Shown: positions 3,208-51,836 of the stretch, one piece after another
Layout: the number at the start of each line of letters is the position of its first letter
Numbering within the stretch: position 1 is the first letter of the stretch
Virus record (IMG/VR): IMGVR_UViG_3300036795_000052
Span: 1 to 51,836 of that record
Strand: one strand, 5' to 3'
DNA from: a virus
Length of the DNA stretch: 51,836 nucleotides
The notes under the pieces: generated by a model
What the model was told of the DNA's origin: nothing
What the model saw: the letters and a program-made list of their open reading frames with translations, nothing else
Database searches by the model: none
Position numbers and translations under genes: made by a program

Positions 3208-3236
3208 ATTATATAGTACAGAGTCAAAAATCTCAA
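3208..3236 (-). promoter_or_regulatory. Leftward promoter TTGAGA-N17-TATAAT
   Basis: Minus-strand -35 TTGAGA (3231-3236) and -10 TATAAT (3208-3213), 17 bases apart, about 100 bases ahead of the gene at 2886-3107. Confidence 0.75.
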
Positions 3237-3253
3237 GACCCTCGGGCTTAGAA

Positions 3254-31624: not shown

Positions 31625-31880
31625 ATGCTGCCTCCGGATGATGTCCTAGTGCTGCGAATACGTTCATGATGTAGATGAGGCAGTCGGTTGCCTCATCAAC
31701 CATCTCCGCTTGAAGGTCCATACGCTTGTGCGTACCGCGTTCGACCTTCTTGACGAGGTTGGCTAGTTCGCCTACTTCGCCAGCCAGTGCAAGAACTTGA
31801 AAGGGTAGGTCAGTTGCGGTTTCAGGAAACCACTCCTTACTATCCTCCGAACACTGGATATATAGGTCGTCTAGGTTCAT
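31521..31880 (-). CDS. MazG-like nucleotide pyrophosphohydrolase
   Basis: 119 aa. The MazG pattern is clear: ALAGEVGELANLVKKVERG and EMVDEATDCLIYIMNVFAALG, with the metal-binding Glu and Asp residues, and the KRHRNRRRFG end. It hydrolyses (d)NTPs to monophosphates and may cleanse the pool of modified or alarmone nucleotides. Encoded beside folE. Confidence 0.8.
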   Translation of the reverse strand: MNLDDLYIQCSEDSKEWFPETATDLPFQVLALAGEVGELANLVKKVERGTHKRMDLQAEMVDEATDCLIYIMNVFAALGHHPEAAYERKRHRNRRRFGPTGSTSGGGRDIHPRVQFTPK

Positions 31881-33113: not shown

Positions 33114-33552
33114 TGCTACTCCAGGTTGCACAGTTGACGGAAGTTTCCCAGACCGTGACGTTCGTGAGTGGACAGGCGAAGAAGCCTTTTGCCCAGCTGC
33201 CTATCTCCGTGGCGAAGTTCTCCGTTGTAGGATCTCCATTAAAGACTGCGCGTCCTGGTAGGGCTAGCTTCTCGACGTTACCGTCTACGTCGTAGACGTA
33301 ACCGATCACTTGCGACCAAGGGTCGCGTGCGTTTAGGAGTACACGATGGTCGTACTGCGTATCGAGCCACTTGCGGAAGTGCTTCTTGATCATTCCGAAG
33401 TCAAGAGTTTCTAGGAGTCCGTGATTGTCGACTTCACCACCGAGTTCGAGTTCGACCCACCAGCTGTGTCCGTGAATGTTCTGACACTTGCCTGGTGTCT
33501 CATAGAGACGATGAGCCATCTCGACGTTGTGCTTGACCTTGATAGTCTGCAT
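33106..33552 (-). CDS. queD: 6-carboxytetrahydropterin synthase
   Basis: ATG at 33552, coupled by TAATG to queC; 148 aa. Zinc histidines in MAHRL and NIHGHSW, catalytic Cys in KCQNIHGH, YDHRVLL, and PTTENFATEI with VWET. Second step of preQ0 synthesis. Confidence 0.93.
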   Translation of the reverse strand: MQTIKVKHNVEMAHRLYETPGKCQNIHGHSWWVELELGGEVDNHGLLETLDFGMIKKHFRKWLDTQYDHRVLLNARDPWSQVIGYVYDVDGNVEKLALPGRAVFNGDPTTENFATEIGSWAKGFFACPLTNVTVWETSVNCATWSSNA

Positions 33553-34256
33553 TACTTGATTACCGTCTTCCAGAAAAGATAGTCCTCGTAGATCGTGTCG
33601 TCTTCGACACCCGCTTCGTCGATAGCTTCGAGACGCTCGACGCAGGTTCCGCACTTGCCGCAGTGGAACATTCCACCTTTGTAACACGACCAGGTCTTGT
33701 CGATCGGAACTCCGTGCATCTCTGCGTCGCTGGCGATATCGGCCTTAGTCTCGTAGATGTAAGGCGCGAAAATCTTGAAGTGGTCAGGAAGGAAATCTTC
33801 GTTACCAACCCTGATTGCGTGTTCGAGACTTCCGAGGAAGTCTGGCCTGCAGTCAGGATAGATCTCGTGGTCGCCGGCGTGCACAGCCGTTGCGACGAAC
33901 TCGTCGTACCCGGAGGCAATAGCAGTGCTGGTTGCGATCGAGAGCATGACCATGTTACGATTCGGAACGACCGTCTGCTTCATGTTGTCTTCGGCGTAGT
34001 GACCTTCCGGAACCTCGATGACAGGATTCGTGAGGCTTGAACCGCTACTTTTCAGGATGTCAGCCCAGTCGTTAAGCTTGACGACGTTGTGCGTGACGTT
34101 GAGCATACGACTGACCGTCGCTGCTGCATCGAGCTCCTTCTTGTGTCGCTGTCCGTAGTCGAACGACAGAGCGAGAACGTCGTGACCTTCGTGCACGAGC
34201 TTGTACAGCAGCGTCGTGCTGTCGAGTCCACCAGAAAGAATTACGATACCCTTCAT
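33552..34256 (-). CDS. queC: 7-cyano-7-deazaguanine (preQ0) synthase
   Basis: 234 aa from the second of two ATG codons, which is better spaced from AGGAG. PP-loop ILSGGLDSTTL, DYGQRHKKE, VVPNRNMVML and zinc cysteines CYKGG/HCGKCGTCVER. Makes preQ0, the last free base before insertion. No queF is seen, so the pathway should stop at preQ0. Confidence 0.95.
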   Translation of the reverse strand: MKGIVILSGGLDSTTLLYKLVHEGHDVLALSFDYGQRHKKELDAAATVSRMLNVTHNVVKLNDWADILKSSGSSLTNPVIEVPEGHYAEDNMKQTVVPNRNMVMLSIATSTAIASGYDEFVATAVHAGDHEIYPDCRPDFLGSLEHAIRVGNEDFLPDHFKIFAPYIYETKADIASDAEMHGVPIDKTWSCYKGGMFHCGKCGTCVERLEAIDEAGVEDDTIYEDYLFWKTVIK

Positions 34257-36415
34257 CATGTCTCCTGAAGTAGTGTGTTGTACGATATACCTCGACCCTC
34301 GCCACCCTTAGTGATGAGACCTCGGTTGACGAGAGTGTTCTCGATCTCAGACATTTCCTTCGCGGTTAGATGGTATGTCTGCATGACTCGAGAACGTGTC
34401 ATTGTCTGCTTCTTCTGGATCGCGTTCAGGACGAGCGTGATCTTGTGTTCTGCCTCAGACCTGCCAACGTTGAGTACAATCTCCTGAGCATACCTCCGCC
34501 ATTGATCTCCGAATGAGGCTGCCTTGAGTATGTCATACTCTGTGACTTCGACCGGTCCTTCTTCGGTTCTAGCTGCAGCCAAGAGCATCGCACACTTGAG
34601 CATGCTGGCAGCGAGCCGTGCATTGGTGGGGACAACAACATCGGCCATCTCTCCTGCATCTAGACCTATCTGCGATAGTGTCTGGTCGAGAATATTGTAC
34701 CGATGCCAAGCGTCTTGAGACATCCTGATCTCTTGCGCCTGACGCGTCATGCCAACTACTTTGCCATTGACACTCACAGGCATGTTATTGCTATGCCTTT
34801 GGCTGATGTCTCGAAGCTCGGCGAGTATCCGATCGCGGCCCTCGATGTTGAGCGCCACAGGGGGTCCCAAAGGTTTGACCCTGGAAATGTCACTCTCGGC
34901 TGTGATGATGACGAACCTTGGTAGGAAGCCCGACTCGACATGTTCGAACGAAAGGATCCGAGTCATCTTGGACTTGATACCTCCGCCGAAGATAATCAGC
35001 CGAGGATCTCGAACGATGATCTCTTCTTTCCGCAGTAGACGCTTTTGAGTTTTGCCATCGTAGATCTTGGCGAAGAACTCTGGCATACCTGCCATGTAGT
35101 CCTTCTTGTGCATCTGGTCTACTAGGCCTGTAAACTCGTCTCGTAGGAAGACAGACGGTTGTCCTGATCGGGCGGATAGTGCTGTCGTGAGACCTTCGAG
35201 TGATCCGTCCGTTGCCATGAGGATACTCTCATCGACCTCCATAATTAGGTCCATCGCCAAGTCCATGGCTGTCGACTTTCTCGTCAGGGTCGTATCCGCT
35301 AGGAGTAGAAACCAGATGTTCGGCTGAACTGTCCCGAAGGATGTCGGCAGCTTGATAGACCCAGCTAGTACCGACGACAAAGCTACGAACGCTCCTGCTA
35401 CGTGATACTGCGGTGCTGCGTCCCCAACTGTCTTGGCCCACTCGATATACCTGTCTACGAAGGTTGGTGGAAGTTCCTTGATCAGGGTTTTTTCTGAATC
35501 CGACAGAAGTGAGATCTCTCCTGACGGAGGCATGGAAGACTGTTTACGGTTAGTATCGAACCTGGCTCTTGCGCGGCAGATATCTTTCCATAGACGTATG
35601 TCTTCATCAAACTTGTTACATGAAGCGTCTCTGCATACTTGAAACGTTTCTGCCATGGAAAGCAACGCTTCAAAGCAGTACATTTCCAGACGGAATAGGA
35701 GCGCACTGCGATCAGCGCCCTCTGCTAGCTCCCTGTGGAAAAGTGTGAACGCGGCACCGTTTATCTTGTGTCGAACATCTTCTAGAACCTCTTGACCAGT
35801 TCGAACTGTTAGGTCCGGGAAAGGAATATCGAGGTACTCGTACCCTTCGACTTGAGGGTACATATAGAAGTCATCGACACTGTAGATGAGTTCTGGATCC
35901 CAGACGAGTACTTGGACGTACGGTGGCTCTGCATCGCCATACTTAAAGTTCCGTGTTCCCGGTACTCTCAGGAGTTGGGTGAGGTCCCATCCCGATCGGT
36001 CGCTTCCTTCCTGTGCGTGTCCGTAAGCGATTCGTCGTGAGATGGCTTCTGCTGTCTCGGCATCGACAGGCTTGTCAAGAGTCCATATTGCTTGATAGCG
36101 GCCTGGGCTTGTCTCGAGCGATATCGACGGTTGCACATGTAGATTATCAGGGTGACAATCGTCCAGGTCAGACCAAACACACTGCACCAGACCAACATGT
36201 TTCTTGTCTCGTTTCTTTTCCGTAAGTAGCTGCGGACAGAAGTAGACGTTTTCTACCATGGTTTTCGACCTGACGAGCTCGGCAACGTCGCCAAAGTCTT
36301 CTGGGAACTTAAAGAATCGTTCTTGAAACTGACCACTCTTCTTTCTGGAAGCGATACACATGTATCCCTCTGTATCGCCGTATGCTGACAGGAAGAAGCC
36401 TTTCAAGCCAGGCAT
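34256..36415 (-). CDS. Primase-helicase (AEP-like primase + DUF3987)
   Basis: 719 aa. The N-terminal part has the archaeo-eukaryotic primase carboxylate motif CVWSDLDDCHP and SPGRYQAIWTL; the middle is a DUF3987-type P-loop ATPase (LADTTLTRKSTAMDLAMDL, then FLRDEFTGL as Walker B). The end is a winged-helix-like segment (MTRSRVMQTYHLTAKEMSEIENTL). Likely the replisome primase-helicase. Confidence 0.8.
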   Translation of the reverse strand: MPGLKGFFLSAYGDTEGYMCIASRKKSGQFQERFFKFPEDFGDVAELVRSKTMVENVYFCPQLLTEKKRDKKHVGLVQCVWSDLDDCHPDNLHVQPSISLETSPGRYQAIWTLDKPVDAETAEAISRRIAYGHAQEGSDRSGWDLTQLLRVPGTRNFKYGDAEPPYVQVLVWDPELIYSVDDFYMYPQVEGYEYLDIPFPDLTVRTGQEVLEDVRHKINGAAFTLFHRELAEGADRSALLFRLEMYCFEALLSMAETFQVCRDASCNKFDEDIRLWKDICRARARFDTNRKQSSMPPSGEISLLSDSEKTLIKELPPTFVDRYIEWAKTVGDAAPQYHVAGAFVALSSVLAGSIKLPTSFGTVQPNIWFLLLADTTLTRKSTAMDLAMDLIMEVDESILMATDGSLEGLTTALSARSGQPSVFLRDEFTGLVDQMHKKDYMAGMPEFFAKIYDGKTQKRLLRKEEIIVRDPRLIIFGGGIKSKMTRILSFEHVESGFLPRFVIITAESDISRVKPLGPPVALNIEGRDRILAELRDISQRHSNNMPVSVNGKVVGMTRQAQEIRMSQDAWHRYNILDQTLSQIGLDAGEMADVVVPTNARLAASMLKCAMLLAAARTEEGPVEVTEYDILKAASFGDQWRRYAQEIVLNVGRSEAEHKITLVLNAIQKKQTMTRSRVMQTYHLTAKEMSEIENTLVNRGLITKGGEGRGISYNTLLQET

Positions 36416-41809: not shown

Positions 41810-43263
41810 TCTTACCCTCCAGGAGCATGATGAGGTCTTTGGCCTTGCCTTGGATACGCTGCTTACGTCCTAGGTCGACTGTGTCGCGAGCCATGATGTC
41901 GATTACTTGGACGGTATCGAGTTGTCCGATCCGATGAAGTCGATCCTCCGCCTGCGTGTTCTTGCTGGGGTTCCACATCCTGTCCACGAAAACGACAGTA
42001 CTGGCTCGGTGAAGGGTGATACCTTCACCACCAGACGCGATCGTCGCAGCGAGAACCTGTATGTCTCCGGCTTGAAATGCCTCAATATTCTTGTCGCGGT
42101 CTCTGTGTGAAACCTGACCTGTGTAAGGTACAGCTGAGATCCGTCGTTGATGGAGACGCTGAATCGCGAGGTCGACCATAGACCGTGACTGGGAAAAGAA
42201 CACGAGGGGTTCGTTTGGGTTGCCATCAACCAGCTCCATGAATCTATCGAGCTTGATACTGGGATCAGTGAGCTTGACATGGATTCGACCGTTCTTGTCT
42301 TCGGAAAACTCGGGAGTGGCTAGAGCGATTTGCTGGAGTCGAACGAGTTGACTAACTACGACAGGAGCGGTGAGCGGGATGTCTTCGTTCTTTCCGAGCC
42401 AGGCTATCATGTCCTTTCTCATCTGATCGTAGATGCGCCTCTGCTTCGGACTCAGCGACACATGAAGTTCGGTCCAGTACTTCGGCGGCAAGTCAATCCC
42501 AACTTCGGACTTCTTGCGGCGGATATACCAAGCATCCCACTCCCTGTGGAGTTGTGGAATGCGGTCCTCGCGTATGCCGACGATCTTCCGAAAGGTCTTC
42601 CCTCGGCCTTGTTCGACCTGATGCTCACAATAAGTGTTCGTGAAGCGCCAGTACGAGCTATACTGCTTCGGGTGGAGCCAGTTGAGAATTGACCAGATGT
42701 CTTGCGGCTTGTCGTCAGCTGGCGTACCAGAAAGACCTGTCTTGTAGTAGCAAGACAGCTTCTTGATTGCCTGAGTCTGCTGCGAAGTTCTCGACTTGAT
42801 TCGATGAACTTCGTCGGCGATGATGTGGAACCACTTGATCTCTTTCAAGATCGGCATCAGCCGAAGAGCTTCGTAGTGCACGATCACGTAGCACGGAAGA
42901 GGCTTCTGCTTGAGTCGAAGTTCGAGTTTGTCTCGATGCTTCGAGTCGATAACTGCGATGTTCCTGTCAAGCGCCTTTTCAGACCAGGTGTCTTCTGTTC
43001 GAAGTTCCCGGATAGCTTTCACCCAGGCGTCGTAGTGCGTTGCTAGAGGTGCGATGATCAACGTCGGCCGCTTGTAAGGAGGCTGTTCCCCTTTGGGAAA
43101 ATCTTCCCAAAGTCTGTAGCTGCGTAGTTCGTCGTCGATGAGGAGGCCTTCAAGGGTCTTTCCTAGCTAAAAGCCCCATATCGTCAGCGACAAGTCGACT
43201 TGGTAGTTCCTTCTTTGCCAGTCTCTTAACACATTCTAGCTGATACGGATACGGAGTAATCAT
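41802..43263 (-). pseudogene. SNF2-type helicase, frame broken inside Walker A
   Basis: From 43135 down, a long open frame encodes SNF2 motifs: ADEVHRIKS (II, DEVH), GLSGTPADD (III), VFFSQSRSMV, ASGGEGITLHRAS (V) and DRLHRIGQ (VI). An ATG at 43263 starts MITPYPYQLECVKRLAKKELPSRLVADDMGL, but the next bases insert 7 nt (43171-43165) before GKTLEGLL, so the Walker A reads MGL-LARKDP-stop and the GKT frame has an in-frame TAG. Removing those 7 bases restores MGLGKT. As sequenced only the part from TTG 43061 or an unusual recoding event could give protein. Confidence 0.8.
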
Positions 43264-43266
43264 GCT

Positions 43267-43581
43267 TCACCTCCCCATTAGGCCTTTAGAACGGCGAACG
43301 GCTTCCCGTCGACATTCCTTGCAGCCATGAATAGCACCAGTTTGCGGATGTCTGTAGACATTGTCTTCTGTTAGTTCGTGCCCGTTTTTACATCTAGGCT
43401 TCCGATCATAATCTGCGTGGCATGATCTACAGAGTGGTATGAATGCACCGGTCTCGTGTACAGTAGCCCAGTCGAAAGCTTGTTCACCGCATAGCATCCA
43501 GCATGTGTGGTTAGACGCTGGCCCTTTATGGTAACGTTGCTTGACATGGATGTTCCTGTACTCGTTATCGCCTGTCTTCAT
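43267..43581 (-). CDS. HNH homing endonuclease, free-standing
   Basis: 104 aa. Zinc and HNH pattern: CWMLCGEQAFDWATVH, CRSCHADYD, then a CKNGHELTEDNVY / CKECRREA zinc unit. It sits exactly after the codons for LVADD of a first helicase N-terminus copy and before a second copy of the same N-terminus. Its last codons (GGGGAGGTGA) provide the ribosome-binding site for the second copy. Confidence 0.88.
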   Translation of the reverse strand: MKTGDNEYRNIHVKQRYHKGPASNHTCWMLCGEQAFDWATVHETGAFIPLCRSCHADYDRKPRCKNGHELTEDNVYRHPQTGAIHGCKECRREAVRRSKGLMGR

Positions 43582-43670
43582 GTGTCGTCTGCAACGAGCC
43601 TACTAGGAAGTTCCTTCCTCGCTAGCTTTTGCACGCATGCTACCTGGTAGGGGTATGGCTTGAGTGCCAA
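43581..43670 (-). pseudogene. First copy of SNF2 helicase N-terminus, cut by HNH gene
   Basis: A TTG at 43670 with GGAGG upstream begins MALKPYPYQVACVQKLARKE and LPSRLVADDT, then stops (TGA overlapping the HNH ATG). It is about 70 percent identical in protein to the second copy at 43263, with many synonymous differences, so the two were not copied recently from each other. Likely the original gene start. Confidence 0.75.
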
Positions 43671-43836
43671 GGTACACCTCCTTCATAATGTCACGAACGA
43701 CCCTAGTATCCGGGTACACTATATCGAACAGACTCGAGGGGCAAAGGTTCCGGGAGACCGAGTGGACGACCTGTCCAGAATCCTTCACATCGCAGTACGT
43801 CTTGTGCGCGACGCACTTGTATCTGATCATTCGCAC
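43603..43836 (-). CDS. Small Cys/His hypothetical protein, 77 aa
   Basis: Starts at GTG 43836 or ATG 43830 just after the preceding stop. IRYKCVAHKTYCDVKDSGQVVHSVSRNLC suggests a zinc-binding module. Its end overlaps the first helicase copy in another frame. Confidence 0.5.
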   Translation of the reverse strand: MRMIRYKCVAHKTYCDVKDSGQVVHSVSRNLCPSSLFDIVYPDTRVVRDIMKEVYLGTQAIPLPGSMRAKASEEGTS

Positions 43837-43837
43837 C

Positions 43838-44245
43838 TTACTTGTCGATTACGTTGTGACGCTTCTTGCCATCGTCGGCGTACCAGCCACCGCCCATACC
43901 TAGGCAGTCGCCGCACGTCTTGGTATTGGCAAGTGGTCCTTGTGTCTGCTTAAGCTCTCTGGAGAACGTACGCCATGGCTTTGGGATGGGCTTTCCATCC
44001 ATCATGACTACTCCGCAGCTCTCGCAGGTTTCACAGTCAAGCCACCTGATTGCTTCATGGCCTTGCTTACTGAGCCAGAAGCCATTATCTCGGATTGCTC
44101 TTCGAGTTACGACGACAAATAGGAAGACTGTCGCCGCGACGATGAGTGCTGCTATGGTAAGTCCTATGTGCTGAAACACAACCCAGACCACCTCCACCAT
44201 TCCTAGTAGGAGTACGAAGCCGATGTCATTGAAGAAGCCGCTCAT
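43838..44245 (-). CDS. Membrane protein with zinc-ribbon-like tail, 135 aa
   Basis: Two hydrophobic helices (IGFVLLLGMVEVVWVVF and IGLTIAALIVAATVFLFVVV), then CETCESCG and TCGDCLGMGGGWY, a DnaJ-type zinc-finger arrangement. Probably placed at the inner membrane with the zinc module in the cytoplasm. Function unknown. Confidence 0.65.
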   Translation of the reverse strand: MSGFFNDIGFVLLLGMVEVVWVVFQHIGLTIAALIVAATVFLFVVVTRRAIRDNGFWLSKQGHEAIRWLDCETCESCGVVMMDGKPIPKPWRTFSRELKQTQGPLANTKTCGDCLGMGGGWYADDGKKRHNVIDK

Positions 44246-44550
44246 TTACCTAGTCTAAGAGTTCCGATTACGTCGCCGCTTCTTGGACAGAGCCAGAGGA
44301 GCGCTTCCGGCGATCCGTCCTGGGCGAACTGGTAGCTCGTCAGTAGACGGTTCTTTCCGTTGTACGGATGCCTGATCTTGCAACGCCTGCACCAGACGCC
44401 GCTCCCCTTGTCTTGCAGAGTAGGCGGCTTCCAGCTTACGCCGTCGTGACTCCTCTTTTTTCTGTGCCACCTCTTGGAGAATGGCGTCTCGAACAGCTTG
44501 CCGCGCTTGTTCTTGGGCGGCGGCCGCTTGTCGCTTTCGCTCACGAACAC
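44242..44550 (-). CDS. Possible overlapping gene with WCRRCK motif, 102 aa
   Basis: Shares nearly 300 bases with the gene at 44255 in another frame. The second half (GVWCRRCKIRHPYNGKNRLLTSYQF, ALLWLCPRSGDVIGTL) looks more protein-like than the alternative frame, and its stop overlaps the next gene's ATG. A true overlap, a shorter gene with non-standard start, or a frameshift fusion with the upstream frame are all possible. Confidence 0.4.
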   Translation of the reverse strand: MFVSESDKRPPPKNKRGKLFETPFSKRWHRKKRSHDGVSWKPPTLQDKGSGVWCRRCKIRHPYNGKNRLLTSYQFAQDGSPEALLWLCPRSGDVIGTLRLGK

Positions 44551-44743
44551 ACCTCATATGTCCCTTGTGATGTTTCGACGACTTGGCTCGAGCCCCGATA
44601 TACGGGTCCCCGCACATAGTAAAGACAGCCACAGGGGCGCGAGTGGGTTTGTCGGGAGCTTTGACTTTCTTGGCCTCTTTAGGCTTGGGTTTGTGTAGCT
44701 CGTTCAGGAGCTTCTTCACATTGAACTTGCTGTCGTGGCTCAC
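44255..44743 (-). CDS. Basic coiled-coil hypothetical protein, 162 aa
   Basis: GTG overlapping the previous TGA. Lys/Pro-rich start, one CGDPYIGARAKSSKHHKGHMRC zinc-like segment and a long Arg/Glu/Ala coiled coil. The last third overlaps another frame (44242-44550) and may be replaced by it through a shift. Function unknown. Confidence 0.5.
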   Translation of the reverse strand: MSHDSKFNVKKLLNELHKPKPKEAKKVKAPDKPTRAPVAVFTMCGDPYIGARAKSSKHHKGHMRCVRERKRQAAAAQEQARQAVRDAILQEVAQKKEESRRRKLEAAYSARQGERRLVQALQDQASVQRKEPSTDELPVRPGRIAGSAPLALSKKRRRNRNS

Positions 44744-44883
44744 CGCGCATCCTTCTCATCTATGACGAAGTCCCGGAATTTCGCTAGAACTCGTTGGGTT
44801 GTAGGGTCCTCGAAGTTCCACTTCTCGCCGCGGTCGTAAGCGGCCAGTATAGCTAGAATGAGGTCCCACTCTTCAGGTTCCAT
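44740..44883 (-). CDS. Small hypothetical protein, 47 aa
   Basis: Short gene MEPEEWDLILAILAAYDRG, ATG inside the end of the upstream gene, stop overlapping the next GTG (GTGA). The chain of overlaps and the acidic helical composition support it. Confidence 0.6.
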   Translation of the reverse strand: MEPEEWDLILAILAAYDRGEKWNFEDPTTQRVLAKFRDFVIDEKDAR

Positions 44884-45037
44884 TGGAACTTCTTTCCTCG
44901 ATGCTCTCGACCTCCCAGTTGAACTCGAGTTCGTCTGCCTGACTTATAGCTTCCTCTTTGGCGGCTTCTCGGCTGTCGGCTTCGATTTCGAGAACTGCTG
45001 GTGAGTAAGTGGGCTTGACTGTTACGGTGTACTTCAT
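44873..45037 (-). CDS. Small hypothetical protein, 54 aa
   Basis: Begins MKYTVTVKPTYSPAVLEIEA, like the MKYAVVKRTV and MKFIVEISD starts of the genes at 46676 and 46876, suggesting a family of small beta-start, acidic proteins. ATG overlaps the upstream TGA. Confidence 0.65.
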   Translation of the reverse strand: MKYTVTVKPTYSPAVLEIEADSREAAKEEAISQADELEFNWEVESIEERSSNGT

Positions 45038-45330
45038 GGCAGGAGACCTTCCTTTCGTGCCTTGATAACCTGCGGGTCGGATTCCTGCCTAGCGACTAGC
45101 TCCCTGCGACGCTTTTCGGTGTTCTCGGTAGCGATTCGAACGAGCTCGTTGTGTGCCTCTTCTGTAGTGTCCCAGTCGAGGTAGACGCCATCTGTTTCGA
45201 CGCGGAGCTTGCCGTACCAGAGTTCCCACTGGCCGTCGTTCCAGAAGAAGACGGGCTTCTTCATGTCTTCGATGGTGAGCTTCTGCATTTCCTGCCAGAG
45301 CTCTTCCGCCTTGGGACTTTCAGCGCTCAT
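45034..45330 (-). CDS. Hypothetical protein, 98 aa
   Basis: Acidic soluble protein with KKPVFFWNDGQWELWYGKLRVETDGVYLDWDT. Overlaps neighbours by four bases. Function unknown. Confidence 0.6.
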   Translation of the reverse strand: MSAESPKAEELWQEMQKLTIEDMKKPVFFWNDGQWELWYGKLRVETDGVYLDWDTTEEAHNELVRIATENTEKRRRELVARQESDPQVIKARKEGLLP

Positions 45331-45623
45331 GCTGTGTAGCCTCCGTAGGGAAAGATCTCGGGGTCGAGCTTCGGGTAGCTGTCATCATAGAAGAGGTTGT
45401 CGTAGCAGGGACCGTGCATGCCTGTCATCAGGGCTTCGCGTTCGTTTTCGCTAAGCTCAGGCCAGAACTTCTGGACGAGCGGTTTGTCGTCGAGGGCGTA
45501 CCACTCTTCCCACTTCTTCGTCGGAACGACGACTCTATTGTTCTTCTTGCATTCCTGGCAGGTGTACTGTAGTGTAGTCGTTCCGTTGCCGTTGTTCATT
45601 ATCGTCGGGAGTGCTAGCGTCAT
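45327..45623 (-). CDS. Zinc-ribbon-like hypothetical protein, 98 aa
   Basis: Contains YTCQECKKNNRVVVPTKKWEEWYALDD and ENEREALMTGMHGPCYDNLF, a small conserved pattern of actinobacterial phages. The first ATG (45623) has GAGG upstream and overlaps the HTH gene by 89 bases; an ATG at 45599 is the alternative. Confidence 0.6.
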   Translation of the reverse strand: MTLALPTIMNNGNGTTTLQYTCQECKKNNRVVVPTKKWEEWYALDDKPLVQKFWPELSENEREALMTGMHGPCYDNLFYDDSYPKLDPEIFPYGGYTA

Positions 45624-45855
45624 CGTCGTCCTCTTCTTTCTCCTGGTTGATTTGGAAGTATTCGTCGGCTTCTTCTCTTACCACACACTTCCGTCCACAA
45701 TCACACCATACAGGTACGAGGTGCTTCTGCCTGATATGATAATACACGGTTTGCGGCGACATACTGCGGAGTCGTGCATACTCGATCGGGGTCATCAACC
45801 TCTGTTCGGCCCGATCGTCCTGTTCTATTTGGCGAGCGAGCTCGTCGAGGTTCAT
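45535..45855 (-). CDS. Helix-turn-helix DNA-binding protein, 106 aa
   Basis: MTPIEYARLRSMSPQTVYYHIRQKHLVPVW is an excisionase/MerR-type HTH, followed by CDCGRKCVV (possible zinc) and an acidic disordered tail. A regulator of phage genes is likely; directly upstream lies element copy C. Confidence 0.75.
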   Translation of the reverse strand: MNLDELARQIEQDDRAEQRLMTPIEYARLRSMSPQTVYYHIRQKHLVPVWCDCGRKCVVREEADEYFQINQEKEEDDDDASTPDDNEQRQRNDYTTVHLPGMQEEQ

Positions 45856-45894
45856 GAGCTACCTTTTTTAAGAGCGCTAGCTTTGTGCAAAAAG

Positions 45895-46003
45895 GTCTAA
45901 ACTTAGGTCTAAGGCTTAGACTCATAAGTTAGACGCGAGGAATACGCTTCTCTTTGTTGCAACGCGCGCACGATTTTGCGCGCGTCTAACTCGCGGTCTA
46001 AGC
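45895..46003 (+). repeat. Dispersed intergenic element, copy C
   Basis: GTCTAA (45895), GTCTAA (45907), TTAGAC (45916), TTAGACGCGAGGAATAC (45929 on) and GCGCGCGTCTAA (to 45989), followed by another GTCTAAGC. Opposite to the local (leftward) transcription, so it may work as DNA. It separates the HTH gene from the gene ending at 45998. Confidence 0.85.
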
Positions 46004-46228
46004 TTTGTCGTGAACCGCGTGCGCGTAGAAGTACCCGAACCAGAAGCACGCGATTGTCTTGTCTTCGACGGATAGTTCCGTCTCGAAGATATCCTTCATT
46101 GCAAGACCGTGTGCGTTTAGGTCGTTCGCCTTGGCGTAGGCGATTTCCCTTTCGCTTATGTCCTCGAACAGACTAACGGTATCGCCGGACTGCTGGACGA
46201 GATAGCGCCCACTGGGCAGACGTGCCAT
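45998..46228 (-). CDS. Hypothetical protein, 76 aa
   Basis: ATG at 46228: MARLPSGRYLVQQSGDTVSLFEDISEREI. The N-terminal beta segment and FETELSVEDKTIACFWFGYFYAHAV are seen. Function unknown. Its stop overlaps element C. Confidence 0.6.
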   Translation of the reverse strand: MARLPSGRYLVQQSGDTVSLFEDISEREIAYAKANDLNAHGLAMKDIFETELSVEDKTIACFWFGYFYAHAVHDKA

Positions 46229-46236
46229 TTTTCCGC

Positions 46237-46350
46237 CTAAAAGCTGTCGTTGATGTTCTTGGCGAACTTCACCCAGATGATTATCAAGACGAGCCAGCAC
46301 AGGATGCATGCCACACCGCCTCCGATGATAAGCCAGCACCACCAAGGCAT
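46237..46350 (-). CDS. Tiny membrane protein, 37 aa
   Basis: MPWWCWLIIGGGVACILCWL then LIIIWVKFAKN: one membrane helix with Trp/Cys-rich head. Excellent AGGAGG site four bases before ATG. Role unknown. Confidence 0.7.
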   Translation of the reverse strand: MPWWCWLIIGGGVACILCWLVLIIIWVKFAKNINDSF

Positions 46351-46683
46351 TTATCCTCCTAGGATTCGAATGATCTCGCGGTCCGTTAGTCCTGGATGAG
46401 TCGTCTTGTAATCCAGGATACGGAGTTGATCCCTGGCACGCTGTGCCTGCTCGGACTTGTGATTGATCTTCGGGAACGCTTTCGGACCCTTGTGCGCCTG
46501 AGGAATGCTTCCGTCAGGATTGGTTTGTACGATCCTTCTGTTCTCAAAGTCCGTACAACGATCGTTGCGGCATTCAAATACATGAACCTTACCGCCCTGT
46601 GGAAGCTTTGTCACCTTCACAGCCGCGCAGGGCTCCTGACACTTGGGACAGCGACTTGCGATCTCGAAGGTTGTCTCAGCCAT
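46351..46683 (-). CDS. Zinc-ribbon protein, 110 aa
   Basis: ATG at 46683. CPKCQEPC and CRNDRC form a treble-clef-like zinc ribbon; a basic helical C-terminus ends THPGLTDREIIRILGG. Possibly nucleic-acid binding. Octamer CCCTGTGG at 46595. Confidence 0.65.
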   Translation of the reverse strand: MAETTFEIASRCPKCQEPCAAVKVTKLPQGGKVHVFECRNDRCTDFENRRIVQTNPDGSIPQAHKGPKAFPKINHKSEQAQRARDQLRILDYKTTHPGLTDREIIRILGG

Positions 46684-46879
46684 CCGACTGCGTAACCTCC
46701 ACTTCAACCGTGACGTCGTCTGCTTCGTTGACGAATTCAAGAACTTCTCCGAGTTCGTCGTTCTCCTTTTCGAATTTCGTGATGGTCTCGAGTGTTGACT
46801 CTTCGCCTTCAAGGACGTAATCCTCGAAGGCGACTGTCGCGGTCGCGACGACCGTCCTCTTGACGACTGCGTACTTCAT
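46676..46879 (-). CDS. Acidic hypothetical protein, 67 aa
   Basis: MKYAVVKRTVVATATVAFEDYVLEGEESTLE: a beta start then acidic helices. Same general form as the genes at 44873 and 46876. Function unknown. Confidence 0.6.
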   Translation of the reverse strand: MKYAVVKRTVVATATVAFEDYVLEGEESTLETITKFEKENDELGEVLEFVNEADDVTVEVEVTQSDG

Positions 46880-47154
46880 ACCTGCTCCAGAATGACACTG
46901 GTAAGAGCTGCCTCGATGTTATCAGACTCGGTGTCGTTCCACGAGATGATACCGAGGCCCTCTTCCGAGGCATGGAAGTCGACGAACGTCTTCGCCTCGT
47001 CGACGTCCTTGAACTGGAGAAGGACAGTTCCGGGCTCGAGCTTCTTGGTGGACAAGGCTCTGAATCCGAGGTTCGCGATTTCGAGAAATGTCTCACCGAC
47101 AAGGCTGAGGCCTTCGAGGTCGGCCTCGTCGGAGATTTCGACGATAAACTTCAT
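46876..47154 (-). CDS. Hypothetical protein, 92 aa
   Basis: MKFIVEISDEADLEG; contains VLLQFKDVDEAKTFVDFH, reminiscent of the TFRDEAAAERF unit at 40185/40624. Overlaps neighbours by four bases. Confidence 0.6.
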   Translation of the reverse strand: MKFIVEISDEADLEGLSLVGETFLEIANLGFRALSTKKLEPGTVLLQFKDVDEAKTFVDFHASEEGLGIISWNDTESDNIEAALTSVILEQV

Positions 47155-47564
47155 GATGCTTTCTCCGATTCTAGAACCTCGACCTTTGCTTCGAGGATGT
47201 TGACACGATTCACGAGGACGCTAACAACGTCCATCGTCTGGCCGAGCTTGGTGTTGGTCTTGCGCCGCTTCTCTTCGAAGCTAGCGAAGTCGTCCCAGTT
47301 GGGCTCGCGAACGATTTCCCAACGACTAGGAGAGCTTCCTCCTCCTCGAGCGATCTGCCTCACGCAGTGCATCGCCTTCAGTCGCTTCAGGACTTCGGTG
47401 TAGTAAGGCGTCGCCAACCTTAGCTCCTGGAAGAGCTGAGTGATGAAGCCTTCGTACACCAACGCGGAACGGCCTTCTATCTTTCCGGGTTCAGAAACCT
47501 TCTTCATGGCCTCGTAAACCGTTGAGCAGTGCTCAAACAAACGCGGCGGGGCGTCTTCACTCAA
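47151..47564 (-). CDS. Putative winged-helix protein, 137 aa
   Basis: ALVYEGFITQLFQELRLATPYYTEVLKRLKAMHCVRQIARGGGSSPSRWEIV reads as a winged-helix domain with a wing (RGGGSSPSRW); a coiled coil closes the protein. Possible transcription factor of the early operon. Confidence 0.65.
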   Translation of the reverse strand: MSEDAPPRLFEHCSTVYEAMKKVSEPGKIEGRSALVYEGFITQLFQELRLATPYYTEVLKRLKAMHCVRQIARGGGSSPSRWEIVREPNWDDFASFEEKRRKTNTKLGQTMDVVSVLVNRVNILEAKVEVLESEKAS

Positions 47565-47745
47565 GGGAATCCCTCACCTTCTTCAAAACTAGAAGCATCT
47601 CATCCGAGAAGGATGTATGTTCAAGGAGCTCTTCCCAGCTGCCGAATGGCTCCTTGCTCAGTTGCTTCTTTGCGTCTTCCCAAGCATCGAGGTCGATGTC
47701 AAGGTTGTCACGTAGAAGCTCCTTCTCATGTTCCGTTAGATCCAT
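47557..47745 (-). CDS. Acidic hypothetical protein, 62 aa
   Basis: MDLTEHEKELLRDNLDIDLDAWEDAKKQL: small helical acidic protein. It is the first gene after the long structured non-coding region, suggesting it is translated from an RNA processed or terminated there. Confidence 0.6.
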   Translation of the reverse strand: MDLTEHEKELLRDNLDIDLDAWEDAKKQLSKEPFGSWEELLEHTSFSDEMLLVLKKVRDSLE

Positions 47746-47872
47746 GTATTACTCTCTTGTCATGTAAAACTAGGCGCCGAATTCAACCCCTGGCAGGGAG
47801 TTCGTGACGACGCCTAGCCCCAGACTGCCATCCGGTTGTAGCTATCTCAGGTGTTAGGTCTGAGTGCTACCG

Positions 47873-47953
47873 TACGACGTCCGGATTTGAACCGGAACCT
47901 CTCTAAGTCCGGGGGCCCAGATTAGAGTGTTCTGCTTAAACTACGTCGCCGTA
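47873..47953 (-). ncRNA. tRNA-like element with abnormal anticodon arm
   Basis: Minus strand, 81 nt. 7-bp acceptor (TACGGCG with CGTCGTA, one G-U), 5-bp T stem with loop TTCAAAT, 4-bp D stem (GTTT/GAAC) without the GG of D loops, and a 6-bp stem CTCTAA/TTAGAG that encloses 15 nt instead of 7; these can extend it to about 11 bp with a GCCC loop. No anticodon with U33 can be assigned and CCA is not encoded. A decoding tRNA is unlikely; a processing signal or tRNA mimic is more plausible. Confidence 0.55.
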
Positions 47954-48220
47954 CCCGACCCCATCGCGGGTACGTTGGAGGAACCACCTGCCGTCCGACG
48001 GGAGTGGCAGCGTTCGACAAGTGGTTCCGCTTAAGGAGAAGGACGTTAGCGTGTTCCCTACCTACTGACGAACAGCGCTGGCACTTTTAGACCTGTGTGT
48101 GGCCAGGTATGCCCTACGACTTACGTTGCACTAGTCTCAGGAGCTTCTTACGTCCTTCTCCGTCAACGGGCCGAGCGCCTTCCTCTCAGGAGCTGGGGAC
48201 TCCTACGCTCGGCCCTGGTA

Positions 48221-48248
48221 GACGGTAGAGGCTTGACCCTCTACCGTC
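48221..48248 (-). terminator. Hairpin after the 48256 gene
   Basis: Perfect 11-bp stem GACGGTAGAGG/CCTCTACCGTC, loop of 6, eight bases past the stop of the leftward gene at 48256. It may terminate, or form the first helix of the structured RNA region. No U tract follows. Confidence 0.6.
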
Positions 48249-48255
48249 CTGCGGA

Positions 48256-48720
48256 TTACTCCGCCTCTTCGAACTCGGCTTCCTGAGCCTCGTCCTCGTC
48301 GTCGCTCTCGTCCTCGACGACAGCTTCGCCCTCGGGCTCAGCCTCTTCCGACTTCTTGGTCTTCTTGACCGCTGACCGCGTACTCCGGTCGACGTACCAC
48401 TGCACGGCCTCTTCGAGGTCAGGAAGCCCCGGACGCGTGATGCCGTCGTACTCCTCGGCGGTGGGCTGCGTCTCGTAGACGTTGCCATCCTCGTCGTACC
48501 ACTTCACGGGGAAGCGGCCTTCGCCCTTGCCCGGCGACTTGACGTAGGCGTACATCTGCTGCGGCTTGAGAGTGTCCGGTGCGATCTCTTCTGCAACCAG
48601 GTGGTTGCGAAGCTGGATCGGCGTGACGACGCCCTTCGGGAGCGGGAAGCGCGCCGACTTCGGCTTGACCGGTGCGGCCTTCTCTTCCTGCTCTTCGACT
48701 TCAGTTGCGGTGTCAGACAT
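48256..48720 (-). CDS. DNA-binding-like protein, long paralogue, 154 aa
   Basis: ATG at 48720 behind GAGGAGACAAA. Central region VTPIQLRNHLVAEEI, LKPQQMYAYVK, RFPVKWYDEDGNVYE and LEEAVQWYVD aligns with the core of the short proteins at 1921 and 2524 (PQMMYGYAK, VKVEGDKKVYFD, FKSWLDQYL). A very acidic C-terminal tail (EDESDDEDEAQ) is added. All three are monocistronic with own promoters, as expected for abundant nucleoid or regulatory proteins. Confidence 0.7.
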   Translation of the reverse strand: MSDTATEVEEQEEKAAPVKPKSARFPLPKGVVTPIQLRNHLVAEEIAPDTLKPQQMYAYVKSPGKGEGRFPVKWYDEDGNVYETQPTAEEYDGITRPGLPDLEEAVQWYVDRSTRSAVKKTKKSEEAEPEGEAVVEDESDDEDEAQEAEFEEAE

Positions 48721-48788
48721 TTTGTCTCCTCGGGTGATTGGTGACGCGAGGCCCTTGTTCCCCGCTAGCTTTTTGCTGCTATGATTCA

Positions 48789-48818
48789 ATTATATATGGG
48801 CACACATGGGAACCGCAA
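48789..48818 (-). promoter_or_regulatory. Leftward promoter TTGCGG-N18-TATAAT
   Basis: -35 at 48813-48818, -10 at 48789-48794 (minus strand). Upstream lies a TTGGGAAA box (48838-48845), and TATGGGCACA near the -10 pairs with TGTGTCCATA at about 48855-48864, the same design as at 39189-39262. Confidence 0.85.
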
Positions 48819-48868
48819 GGGCTCTCCAAAGATTTCTTTGGGAAATTTTTTGTGTCCATATGAATACG

Positions 48869-49105
48869 CTAGTTCCAGTTGTTCGGGTATGACTTCCCGC
48901 CACAGACGATGCTACTCGGGCAGTAGTTACTGCTGCTACTCGGAGGCTTCGGCATGTCACACTCTGGGCCTAGGTAGGCGCCGTTCGCGCTGATGTGTGT
49001 CATGAGCTTCCGACAGAGCCAGACGTGAGTTCCCGTTCCGGAATTGCAATGCGGACGGAGAGGGTTGAGGCGGTACAAGACCACCATCGCGGCTAGAACC
49101 TTCAT
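48869..49105 (-). CDS. Cys-rich hypothetical protein, 78 aa
   Basis: MKVLAAMVVLYRLNPLRPHCN: short hydrophobic start, then several Cys (CRKL, PECDMP, NYCPSSIVC) that could form disulfides. Possibly exported, but the signal region is weak. Function unknown. Confidence 0.5.
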   Translation of the reverse strand: MKVLAAMVVLYRLNPLRPHCNSGTGTHVWLCRKLMTHISANGAYLGPECDMPKPPSSSSNYCPSSIVCGGKSYPNNWN

Positions 49106-49107
49106 GA

Positions 49108-49281
49108 TTATCTTTTTCCTTCTGTGAGCGGTCCGAATACTATTCGGAGGTTTTCGAGTGACGTGCCCATGCCGACGTCTTGTGCCTGGTGTATAGCACC
49201 ATCACGACTTTCGGCGCAGATGAAACGATCCGGTTCGATTTCGAACCATGGGTCGCCATCGCGGTCGATGTAGGTCCTCAT
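49108..49281 (-). CDS. Hypothetical protein, 57 aa
   Basis: ATG at 49281: MRTYIDRDGDPWFEIEPDRFICAESRDG. The frame is open further upstream but overlaps the next gene. A small beta protein, unknown function. Confidence 0.55.
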   Translation of the reverse strand: MRTYIDRDGDPWFEIEPDRFICAESRDGAIHQAQDVGMGTSLENLRIVFGPLTEGKR

Positions 49282-49490
49282 ATAACTTCCCTTCTCGAAC
49301 GCTCGAGGCGGCCGGTGTAGTACTTCTTGCCATCTTCCGTCTGGATGAGATAGCGCTTGTGACCGAACGAGAACAACCGTCTCTTGATAAGACGTACAGG
49401 AACGCGCTCGAGCCATATCCTGCGAATATCCACAGGGGCGCTGCTGTTCTGTCCAGGGTCGACCATGAGGTAAATGCTACCGACTTTCAT
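49278..49490 (-). CDS. Basic hypothetical protein, 70 aa
   Basis: MKVGSIYLMVDPGQNSSAPVDIRRIWLERV: basic small protein with DIRRIWLERVPVRLIKRR. Overlaps both neighbours by four bases. Contains octamer at 49430. Confidence 0.55.
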   Translation of the reverse strand: MKVGSIYLMVDPGQNSSAPVDIRRIWLERVPVRLIKRRLFSFGHKRYLIQTEDGKKYYTGRLERSRREVI

Positions 49491-49726
49491 CGCGGTGTAC
49501 CTCCGATCGTGTTCCTGAGAGCGTCGTCGATTTCGGTGCCGCGCTCGTTGAGTGCATTCAACGTGACGGTGATGCTCTCCAGCTGTGCCTTGAACACTGC
49601 CGTCTGCTGCTTGATTGCCGTCGCGATAGCCAGCAACGCGAGGCCGACGGGATAATCTGTATTGCTGAGGTCCGTTGTTTCCAACGACTTCTTCGCGTCG
49701 GTGATGCTGACACTAATGTCCGGCAT
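49487..49726 (-). CDS. Helical hypothetical protein, 79 aa, translated behind ribozyme HHR-3
   Basis: ATG at 49726 with AGGGAGAAG upstream; MPDISVSITDAKKSLETTD, then a helical core. The frame continues to 49765 but that part lies in the hammerhead. Its ribosome-binding site pairs with the 5' side of ribozyme stem II, so ribozyme folding and cleavage should affect its expression. Confidence 0.65.
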   Translation of the reverse strand: MPDISVSITDAKKSLETTDLSNTDYPVGLALLAIATAIKQQTAVFKAQLESITVTLNALNERGTEIDDALRNTIGGTPR

Positions 49727-49734
49727 TACTTCTC

Positions 49735-49798
49735 CCTGTGGCTTCTCGTCAGGCACGCCCGCCACAACGTACGACGCCTCCCGGCGTTTCGAATCAGG
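49735..49798 (-). ncRNA. Type II hammerhead ribozyme HHR-3
   Basis: Minus strand order: stem II 5' side (CCUG-A-UUC), GAAA (49790-49787), stem III A-CGCC with GGGA loop, GUC (49775-49773), stem I GUACG/CGUGC, CUGACGA (49752-49746), stem II 3' side (GAA-GCCA-CAGG). Cleavage is expected between 49773 and 49772. Stem II needs an internal loop, so it is the weakest of the three, but all core bases are present. Lies between the genes at 49799 and 49726. Confidence 0.82.
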
Positions 49799-50092
49799 TT
49801 ACAGCTTGCGAATTTCGATCCAGATGTCCGAGCCGTCAGCTGCCGCCCAGAGGAAGCCGGGTGTAGTCTCGACGAGCTCGTCCTCTCCGAAGGCGAACCC
49901 GACTCCGTCGAATTGGATCTTCACGAGCTCGGCGTAGAAGAACGCCTTGGCAGGCTCTTGCGCTGCCACGATGTGGTGCCACGTCACCGTCTCGTTCGAG
50001 CCCATGAGTGTGTTGTGGACTTCGACGAGGTAGTTCGTCCACGGTCCTTCGCTTGTCCGGAAGCGACCGTGTCGAGTTAGATTTGCTTCCAC
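49799..50092 (-). CDS. Hypothetical protein, 97 aa
   Basis: MEANLTRHGRFRTSEGPWTNYLVEVHNTLMG, with FFYAELVKIQFDGVGFAFGEDELVETTPGFLW. Globular alpha/beta; no family recognised. Its 3' end adjoins HHR-3. Confidence 0.6.
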   Translation of the reverse strand: MEANLTRHGRFRTSEGPWTNYLVEVHNTLMGSNETVTWHHIVAAQEPAKAFFYAELVKIQFDGVGFAFGEDELVETTPGFLWAAADGSDIWIEIRKL

Positions 50093-50340
50093 TTGAGCTC
50101 CTTCAGTCCGTACTTCTCGACCTGTCCTGCGAATTCCTTTTCTGAGTACTGGAAAGCCCAGTCGCGTCCGAATAGGTTGAGCATCTTCGCTCGTGCCTCT
50201 TCGCGGTCATCTGCTTCGATGATCACGTAGCGGTGGTCTAGAGAAATGCCCTGTGCGAAGACCGATGGTGAATTCATCGGCCTCTCGGGGTTGTACGAGA
50301 CGAGCCTGTGCTCGAATCCGAATGTGAAGTAGAACTCCAT
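50077..50340 (-). CDS. Hypothetical protein, 87 aa
   Basis: ATG at 50340: MEFYFTFGFEHRLVSYNPERPMN; contains YVIIEADDREEARAKMLNLFGRDWAFQYSEKEF, a pattern of small actinophage proteins of unknown function. Overlaps genes on both sides. Confidence 0.6.
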   Translation of the reverse strand: MEFYFTFGFEHRLVSYNPERPMNSPSVFAQGISLDHRYVIIEADDREEARAKMLNLFGRDWAFQYSEKEFAGQVEKYGLKELKWKQI

Positions 50341-50492
50341 TGCCTCACGAGCTCCTTTCCTGCCGGCTGAGCCGCGGCTATCATAATTCCCCAACCCACA
50401 GGGAGAAAGAGTACCGTGGCGCTGATAGCCAGTCCTAGTATTGCACCGAACACAGCTAGGACGATAAGTAGGATGAACCTAACTGTTGGCAA
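50274..50492 (-). CDS. Small membrane protein, 72 aa
   Basis: TTG at 50492 with AAGGA upstream: LPTVRFILLIVLAVFGAILG and LAISATVLFLPVGWGIMIA give two closely spaced hydrophobic helices. The last 66 bases overlap the next gene in another frame. Probably real from its membrane profile; start uncertain. Confidence 0.5.
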   Translation of the reverse strand: MPTVRFILLIVLAVFGAILGLAISATVLFLPVGWGIMIAAAQPAGKELVRQWSSTSHSDSSTGSSRTTPRGR

Positions 50493-50856
50493 GTAGCATC
50501 CTTGCTTCGGAAATGAAGCTGTTGATGTTGGCGAGCTCCATGTACAGGGCCGCGAGGTCTTCGCTCTCGTCGTACTGGTCGTCGCTGACGAGCTCCGATT
50601 CCGCACCCTTGGCGTCTGCGTACTGCCTGTACGTCAGGCCGAGTCGCGATACGGCCTTAGCTTCGGCGACGAAGCCCTCGAGCTCGACGCACGTCGTCCT
50701 AGCTGTCCAAGTCAGGTGTACGAGGTCTGCGAGTGGGACGTTGAAGACTCGTTCTTCGTCTTCTGGCTCGGTGTATAGGTGCAGATTCGTCTGCATGTTC
50801 ACCGACAGCGTCACCTCGATGTTGTCGTCGACTTTCTTGAACGTGAATGGTTCCAT
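50479..50856 (-). CDS. Hypothetical protein, 125 aa, translated behind ribozyme HHR-1
   Basis: ATG at 50856: MEPFTFKKVDDNIEVTLSVNMQTNLHLYTEPED; beta N-terminal half and acidic helical C-terminal half. Its GGAG ribosome-binding site lies in stem II of HHR-1. Confidence 0.65.
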   Translation of the reverse strand: MEPFTFKKVDDNIEVTLSVNMQTNLHLYTEPEDEERVFNVPLADLVHLTWTARTTCVELEGFVAEAKAVSRLGLTYRQYADAKGAESELVSDDQYDESEDLAALYMELANINSFISEARMLLANS

Positions 50857-50860
50857 GGTA

Positions 50861-50920
50861 CTCCGATCTCGTCAGGCCAGTTCCTTACTGGCGACGGCTC
50901 ACGCCGTTTCGATCGTGGAG
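50861..50920 (-). ncRNA. Type II hammerhead ribozyme HHR-1
   Basis: Minus strand: stem II 5' CGAUC (50915-50911), GAAA, stem III A-CGGC closed by a GUGA tetraloop, GUC (50895-50893), stem I GCCAG/CUGGC with loop UAAGGAA, CUGACGA (50875-50869), stem II 3' GAUCG then GAG pairing with upstream CUC. Cleavage expected between 50893 and 50892. All conserved core nucleotides are present and all three stems close. Confidence 0.92.
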
Positions 50921-51085
50921 TTAGTGGAAGCTGTCGTCGACGAGCCTGTCGTTCTCGGTCAGAAGCCTGACGATTTCTGCCTGGTCGTCCAGGTCGAGCT
51001 TCTTCAGGTGGTCGACGATCTGCTGCAGCGACAGCGCCTGTGCAGTGTTTTCGGTGGCTATCTGCATGTCTACGACTCCGTACAT
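50921..51085 (-). CDS. Small helical protein, 54 aa, between two ribozymes
   Basis: ATG at 51085 after UUUUAGGAG: MYGVVDMQIATENTAQALSL, then QQIVDHLKKLDLDDQAE. Its stop (TAA, 50921) abuts HHR-1 and its ribosome-binding site is in stem II of HHR-2, so after both cleavages it would be left as a monocistronic RNA. Function unknown. Confidence 0.7.
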   Translation of the reverse strand: MYGVVDMQIATENTAQALSLQQIVDHLKKLDLDDQAEIVRLLTENDRLVDDSFH

Positions 51086-51091
51086 GGTCTC

Positions 51092-51151
51092 TCCTAAAAC
51101 TCATCAGGCAGGTATGTCCTGCGACCGGCGTAAGCCGGTTTCGTTCTAAGA
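51092..51151 (-). ncRNA. Type II hammerhead ribozyme HHR-2
   Basis: Minus strand: 9-pair stem II (UCUUAGAAC with GUUUUAGGA, two G-U), GAAA (51142-51139), stem III A-CCGGC with UUAC loop, GUC (51125-51123), stem I GCAGG/CCUGC with loop ACAUA, CUGAUGA (51107-51101). Cleavage expected between 51123 and 51122. The 5' side of stem II contains the UAG stop of the upstream gene and the 3' side contains AGGA of the downstream ribosome-binding site. Confidence 0.93.
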
Positions 51152-51454
51152 CTCTTCGGCCTGTAGCTTCCGTTCGGCATCGAACCTATTCATCCGCTCT
51201 CTGCGGATGACTGCCGCGACGCGCTCTTCCCTGGGCCTGAAGGAGCGTATCTCGAGTGCACCCTGACGATTAATAAGGCTCAGGTCGAGTGTCGCGGCGA
51301 GGTCTGCGAATGCGCTTACTACATTCGCGCCGAGTTCTTTGCTAACATCGAGCCACGCGATCGTCCGATACTTCTCGTGGTCCGGTAGCTCCATGAGCCT
51401 GCGGCTCATTTCGACAGCGCCGAGTTCCTTCTCGATCTCTTCGTTCTTCGTCAT
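51146..51454 (-). CDS. Hypothetical protein, 102 aa, ends inside ribozyme HHR-2
   Basis: MTKNEEIEKELGAVEMSRRLM; soluble, with YRTIAWLDVSKELGANVVSAFADLAATLDLSL. Its stop codon forms part of stem II of HHR-2. Function unknown. Confidence 0.65.
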   Translation of the reverse strand: MTKNEEIEKELGAVEMSRRLMELPDHEKYRTIAWLDVSKELGANVVSAFADLAATLDLSLINRQGALEIRSFRPREERVAAVIRRERMNRFDAERKLQAEES

Positions 51455-51777
51455 TGCTTCTCCGCGTCCGCTGTAGCGTCTTCCTGCAGCTGCTTCTCAT
51501 AGGTCCGCTCGATGAGGTAGTCGCCAAACTTCTCGACGTAGGTCGACGTTTCGGCATCTCCGCGCGGCTCTTCCTTTTGGTACAAACTCCACAGGGTGAG
51601 GAGTTTCTGGGTTTCTTCCTCGGCCTTGGAAGTCTGTATCACAATCTCGTCGGTGTCGGTTCGGTTGACTTCGCTGATGTCCCAGCCATCGACCTTGACT
51701 GTGAAATCTTGAGCCTTTCGTTCCTTCGGGAATATCGACTCGTCCTCAAGAGCTTTGAACAATTCGAGTAGGGTCAT
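51451..51777 (-). CDS. Hypothetical protein, 108 aa
   Basis: MTLLELFKALEDESIFPKERKAQDFTVKVDGW; acidic, helical C-terminus with KLLTLWSLYQKEEP. First gene of the leftward ribozyme operon, preceded by AAGGAG; the upstream part of the operon is at the left end of the window across the closure. Octamer at 51589. Confidence 0.65.
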   Translation of the reverse strand: MTLLELFKALEDESIFPKERKAQDFTVKVDGWDISEVNRTDTDEIVIQTSKAEEETQKLLTLWSLYQKEEPRGDAETSTYVEKFGDYLIERTYEKQLQEDATADAEKQ

Positions 51778-51836
51778 TTTTTTTTCGACTCCTTGGTTGC
51801 TAGTTTTTTGCTCTTGTTTAATTTTAACTGGGACCC
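51658..51836. repeat. Terminal direct repeat, right copy
   Basis: Matches 1-178 except for one additional T in a T run (9 against 8). See the left copy. Confidence 0.95.

Follow-up and report, generated by a model that had tools for sequence, protein, structure and literature searches.

The window, by which we mean the whole 51,836-nt stretch of viral DNA analysed here, is a 51.8 kb IMG/VR record with about a dozen related viral contigs, recognised via helicase and primase-like proteins; among cultured phages no near DNA match to positions 20-44 kb of the window was found. Its minus strand carries a segment of small genes in which three junctions are occupied by hammerhead ribozymes of type II, designated HH1, HH2 and HH3 (Table 1). 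The 102-aa gene upstream of HH1 has no PHROG or Pfam match and belongs to no known family, and the 54-aa gene has no PHROG match and no Pfam match over the cut-off. Homologues of the 97-aa gene are present in contigs L002, L003 and L005, and exact peptide patterns retrieved no close relatives of the 125-aa gene among viral contigs.

The three hammerhead junctions have gaps of 60, 64 and 72 nt; elsewhere in the segment, neighbouring genes overlap or lie about 2 nt apart. Since large gaps occur at the hammerhead junctions alone, the ribozymes divide the operon into several blocks, namely the 54-aa gene by itself (HH1 to HH2), four genes (HH2 to HH3) and the remainder; overlapping genes within the blocks are probably translationally coupled. 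A terminator scan returned no terminator-like site on HH1, HH2 or HH3, and no promoter-like site was found on the minus strand of positions 43000-51836, so that the three sit inside a presumed single transcript.

Other features of the window include a cluster of folE, queE, queD and queC homologues (31877-34259), whose gene content suggests 7-deazaguanine modification of the phage DNA, and a single ORF (27457-29823) for a DNA polymerase A whose N-terminal domain is of uracil-DNA glycosylase family 4. Two long hairpins (13955-14027 and 3180-3237) score below threshold against microRNA families and are probably plain inverted repeats. A search of the window against the other RNA families of Rfam gave sub-threshold eukaryotic or viral families only.

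Table 1. Positions of the hammerheads and of the neighbouring genes in the window (stem lengths in bp).
Feature	Position	Strand	GAAA	Stem III	Cut	Stem I	CUGANGA	Stems II/III/I	Remarks
102-aa gene, upstream of HH1	51146-51454	minus							ORF; TAG stop 3 nt before GAAA
HH1, type II hammerhead	51151-51092	minus	51142-51139	51139-51124	51123/51122	51122-51108	CUGAUGA 51107-51101	9/6/5	stem II formed by the outer flanks, 9 bp including G-U
54-aa gene, sole gene between HH1 and HH2	50921-51085	minus							ORF; SD AGGAG from 51095
HH2, type II hammerhead, compact form	50915-50864	minus	50910-50907	50907-50894	50893/50892	50892-50876	CUGACGA 50875-50869	5/5/6	
125-aa gene, directly after HH2	50479-50856	minus							L002 homologue, tblastn 34% identity, E 6e-14
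97-aa gene, upstream of HH3	49799-50092	minus							ORF with AAGGAG SD; TAA stop 8 nt before GAAA
HH3, type II hammerhead	49793-49743	minus	49790-49787	49787-49774	49773/49772	49772-49753	CUGACGA 49752-49746	3/5/7	
HH3 3' tail GCCACA	49742-49737	minus							predicted from sequence to form a pseudoknot with loop I UGUGGC 49766-49761, as is typical of type II
79-aa gene, directly after HH3	49487-49726	minus							L002 homologue, tblastn 54% identity, E 5e-12

Detection, folding and covariation of the three hammerheads

Both strands of the window were scanned with descriptors for hammerheads of types I, II and III. The scan yielded three complete type II hammerheads, all on the minus strand, and no type I or type III permutation, while 60 Markov-shuffled windows contained no type II match. 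These are the same three places at which the first-pass annotation had reported full hammerhead cores in intergenic gaps, and the cut sites that it predicted after GUC at 51123, 50893 and 49773 agree with the positions given by the scan. Stems I and III are closed by loops and stem II is open in HH1, HH2 and HH3, and the invariant core (C3U4G5A6N7G8A9, G12A13A14, A15.1-U16.1 and H17) is exact in each. All three lie within 1.4 kb and on the same strand as the genes, an arrangement that qualifies as a hammerhead cluster. A pseudoknot of 6 bp between loop I and the tail was recognised by inspection in HH3; none is evident in HH1 and HH2.

The first-pass annotation had also proposed a search with a type II covariance model. 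The Rfam model RF02276 detected HH3 alone, at 38.3 bits against a gathering cut-off of 37, HH1 and HH2 being absent from its listing up to E = 5. An independent model, R1, was built from 40 compact type II hammerheads of other viral contigs, with the window and its relatives left out. It recovered exactly the three (E 7e-15 to 8e-8): HH2 at 49.3 bits (E 7.2e-15), HH3 at 36.8 bits (E 2e-10) and HH1 at 29.6 bits (E 7.6e-8), with no further match in the window up to E = 10; these E-values are rough because the calibration was short. At the level of sequence, the three sites are thus confirmed as type II hammerheads.

The minimum free energy folds of HH1 and HH2 are the exact hammerhead secondary structure, with z-scores of -4.2 and -2.9, respectively. 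The nested fold of HH3 is not a hammerhead (z = -0.9), because the pseudoknot helix wins. Considering that its stem II has only 3 bp and that the nested fold favours another structure, HH3 activity would rest on the pseudoknot. HH1, for its part, may be slow at cellular Mg2+ concentrations, since its stem I is unusual (15 nt) and it has no clear tertiary contact.

Relatives of the window allowed us to follow the stems. The relative G001 (L002/L028) carries four hammerheads in a row, two of which match HH2 and HH3 by gene context and show compensatory changes. The HH2 homologue (around L002 2082-2134) precedes the homologue of the 125-aa gene and the HH3 homologue (L002 4235-4290) that of the 79-aa gene, and in both cases the upstream gene differs. 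Between HH2 and its L002 homologue, 6 of the 15 pairs are changed on both sides and none is broken, which bears out the earlier observation that the stems vary while pairing is kept. The HH3 pseudoknot reads GUGGC/GCCAC in the window and GUGGU/ACCAC in L002, a C-G to U-A change; this pairing was read by eye, the MAFFT alignment misplacing stems III and I. Covariation extends to 11 of 15 pairs in the 40-member alignment, although pairing had been a criterion for choosing its members.

The relatives G002 and G003, near-identical in the sequence they share, carry three hammerheads each, two of them with the core CCGAUGA (U4C), a change reported to slow cleavage considerably. Intercistronic hammerheads with this core are found at L003 1990-2051 and 2286-2337, and likewise in L004; the one at 1990-2051 is homologous by loop I (UCAGAUAGG) to the L002 hammerhead at about 2083-2133. 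No convincing hammerhead was seen in the sequence examined of relatives G004-G012, and the device is therefore dispensable.

Placement of type II hammerheads across viral contigs

We surveyed IMG/VR with a DNA pattern that fixed stem III as ACGCC/GGCGU but imposed little on stem II and nothing on stem I, and the matches do not sample phage hammerheads at random. A stem I of at least 5 bp is present in 88% of the 131 distinct matches listed and in 1.5% of shuffled ones, most pattern matches being therefore real. Hammerheads occur in at least 108 viral loci, at least 13 of which have three or more, with up to nine in series among the matches listed. The first-pass annotation had thought a series of three to be an uncommon device, a view at odds with these counts and with the prophage clusters published in 2011 (PMC3088659).

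Nine hammerheads follow each other in L144 (3617-6699), one between nearly all consecutive small genes, and eight in L078 (8125-11317), at nearly every small-gene junction; cultured phages gave no match for two viral contigs with long hammerhead series. Across loci L048-L167 the stem I segments fall into two classes, a compact one of about 17 nt (loop GUNANGC, stem II of 4 bp) and one of about 22 nt with a pseudoknot. The compact form, which includes HH2 (stem I segment of 17 nt, stem II of 4-5 bp), is common in the sampled viral contigs; RF02276 misses its copies in the window and in L002 or gives them low scores. Phage hammerheads of the compact and variant-core kinds are probably undercounted, since some of them escape the Rfam model. 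Single-substitution core variants are rare, with 3 against 143 canonical cores (strict stems, all loci listed).

The survey also revealed where the ribozymes lie relative to the genes. In 68% of the 176 distinct hammerheads listed, all from other viral contigs, the GAAA starts 0-5 nt past a stop codon, compared to 3.4% of control CGAAAC sites, which are non-hammerhead sites on the same strands; within 0-10 nt the values are 84% and 5.8%. Among the matches listed, the distance from stop codon to cut has a median of 25 nt (interquartile range 23-30), 63 of 162 hammerheads have a stem II that overlaps the stop codon, and an ATG with a Shine-Dalgarno sequence (SD) follows within 60 nt of the core in 69% of cases, against 10% for random places. 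The layout across viral contigs is thus stop codon, ribozyme, SD and ATG. The window fits this rule loosely, the distances for HH1, HH2 and HH3 being 3, 10 and 8 nt from stop to GAAA, 23, 28 and 26 nt from stop to cut, and 37, 36 and 46 nt from cut to ATG. Each of the three had been said to lie between a stop codon and the next start, which stands for all of them, except that HH1 slightly overlaps the end of the 102-aa gene, its stem II beginning inside the stop-codon region. The open literature that we searched gave no description of this stop-codon placement.

A proposed model of transcript dicing and its alternatives

We consider it probable that the three hammerheads act in cis and dice the long leftward polycistronic transcript wherever one block of overlapping genes gives way to the next. 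Read directly from the DNA are the structures themselves, how they covary, where they lie and how the operon is laid out. The earlier proposal that they are intercistronic cutters of one phage operon is supported, provided that they are active. As the polymerase passes a junction, stems I, II and III would form and self-cleavage would follow after GUC, at a distance of 23-28 nt from the stop codon of the preceding gene. Of the two resulting mRNAs, the upstream one would retain this stop codon and terminate with the hairpin of closed stem III, carrying a 2',3'-cyclic phosphate; the downstream one would have a 5'-OH and open with the hairpin of closed stem I, its ATG lying 36-46 nt from the new end. 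To our knowledge, type II is the one circular permutation of the three in which closed hairpins flank the cut on either side. On general grounds hairpins are expected to protect RNA ends; we infer that the RNA is cleaved in the cell and that the hairpins stabilise the products. The predicted pieces are a message ending with the 102-aa gene, the 54-aa gene, the block from the 125-aa to the 97-aa gene, and the 79-aa gene onward, and their expression may differ. No RtcB or RNA ligase gene that could circularise the 230-nt HH1-HH2 fragment was found in the record, although enzymes of the host might do so.

A wider and more speculative proposal, about which we are rather doubtful, is that the position of phage type II hammerheads, with GAAA a few nt from a stop codon and the cut some 25 nt beyond it, is itself selected, as part of a general operon-dicing system in which ORFs are spared, both ends are protected by hairpins and cleavage is gated by terminating ribosomes. 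If true, it would explain why the type II permutation, with both cut-side stems closed, is the one found at junctions. The layout rule also makes the transcript-processing idea yield testable predictions on ribosome gating and end protection, for which the window offers a compact test case with three ribozymes, three junctions and four defined mRNA pieces.

Ribosome gating is also a possible refinement of dicing in its own right, compatible with it, though we think it less likely than not. A ribosome terminating at the adjacent stop codon would cover stem II and the GAAA, so that cleavage would occur only without upstream termination and message stability would be tied to translation by cutting. 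Such gating is suggested by the adjacency of the stop codons, which, among the matches listed, lie 0-5 nt from the GAAA in 68% and overlap stem II in 63 of 162, and HH1 conforms to it exactly. However, the gaps of phages are short and close packing alone could give this placement, and HH2 and HH3 begin 8-10 nt past the stop.

Alternatively, the ribozymes might mainly be 5'-leader switches, in which the SD of the next gene is masked by the uncut stem II or pseudoknot until cleavage exposes it and turns on translation. Indeed, stem II of HH1 pairs AGGA of the SD and that of HH2 marginally reaches it (the first G of GGAG), and the predicted accessibility of the HH2 SD rises from 0.01 to 0.47 after cleavage; moreover, HH2 and HH3 stay with the downstream gene in L002 while the upstream gene differs. 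On the other hand, the HH3 pseudoknot merely abuts the SD, which is left free. The first-pass claim that each ribozyme pairs over a ribosome-binding region hence applies to HH1 and marginally to HH2 but not to HH3, and it does not generalise: among the matches listed, the SD overlaps stem II in 8 of 143 phage hammerheads, and mean predicted SD accessibility in these 143 changes from 0.49 to 0.54 on cleavage. Nor is there a bias toward the downstream gene across viral loci, where 16 homologous pairs share the downstream gene only and 14 the upstream gene only (among the matches listed). A leader switch is unlikely in view of these data, and SD masking as a purpose is weak in general, given the 8 overlaps and the gain of 0.05. 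At HH1, and slightly at HH2, where stem II pairs SD bases, release of the products of dicing may also free the SD, which looks like a local extra and not a general purpose. We also considered the hammerhead and its downstream gene as a mobile cassette; this fits HH2 and HH3 compared with L002 and was rejected as a rule on the same 16 versus 14 pairs, among the matches listed.

It appears quite improbable that the hammerheads have little present function and persist as relics, or as neutral sequences marking junctions where genes have been shuffled. Neighbouring genes do vary between relatives, some relatives are without hammerheads, and the U4C copies of G002 and G003 are expected to be slower; yet the cores are intact, the stems are compensated and placement relative to stop codons is strict. 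Intact cores with compensated stems need selection for structure. Chance hairpins, attenuators or intrinsic terminators can be dismissed with near certainty: each region does have two GC-rich hairpins, but there is no U-run, the terminator scan is empty at the three places, and all invariant core bases occur in all three with none in 60 shuffles.

Comparison with known hammerheads

Dicing by clustered hammerheads has a precedent in the type II hammerheads of Perreault et al. 2011 (PMC3088659), where prophage clusters flank single genes or short blocks and were proposed to dice the transcript and process it into single-gene mRNAs. Tandem phage sets cleave in vitro and one, from A. tumefaciens, in E. 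coli, while 4 of 18 consensus-like hammerheads were inactive when tested. The clusters in Agrobacterium tumefaciens, Azorhizobium caulinodans and Clostridium scindens prophages share with the window the serial hammerheads that flank small genes of one transcript; the phage and genes of the window differ, and position relative to stop codons is not described in the text consulted. What is already known, on this basis, is the clustering of phage hammerheads and the dicing proposal, and what is new here is the quantified stop-codon layout rule. In a 2017 review (PMC6155905), the ORFs flanked by prokaryotic hammerheads are described as small and not conserved, and the role of these hammerheads is called open.

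HHphage of the haloviruses HF1/HF2 lies, like the window hammerheads, just upstream of a start codon, and the 5' end of the early mRNA falls within 3 nt of its cut site; unlike them, it is single, has a variant core, precedes the first gene of its transcript and belongs to an archaeal host (PMC3088659). All three window ribozymes have the open stem II, closed stems I and III and CUGANGA / GAAA / GUC core of RF02276. A pseudoknot of at least 4 bp between loop I and the stem II flank is found in the majority of published type II members; HH3 has its loop I-tail pseudoknot and passes the cut-off, whereas HH1 and HH2, in which none is clear, are missed. In PDB 8YDC (PMC11300833) the core is stabilised by a pseudoknot, as is likely in HH3; however, that construct was designed to act in trans, consists of two strands and has its pseudoknot in place of helix II, while HH3 retains a stem II of 3 bp.
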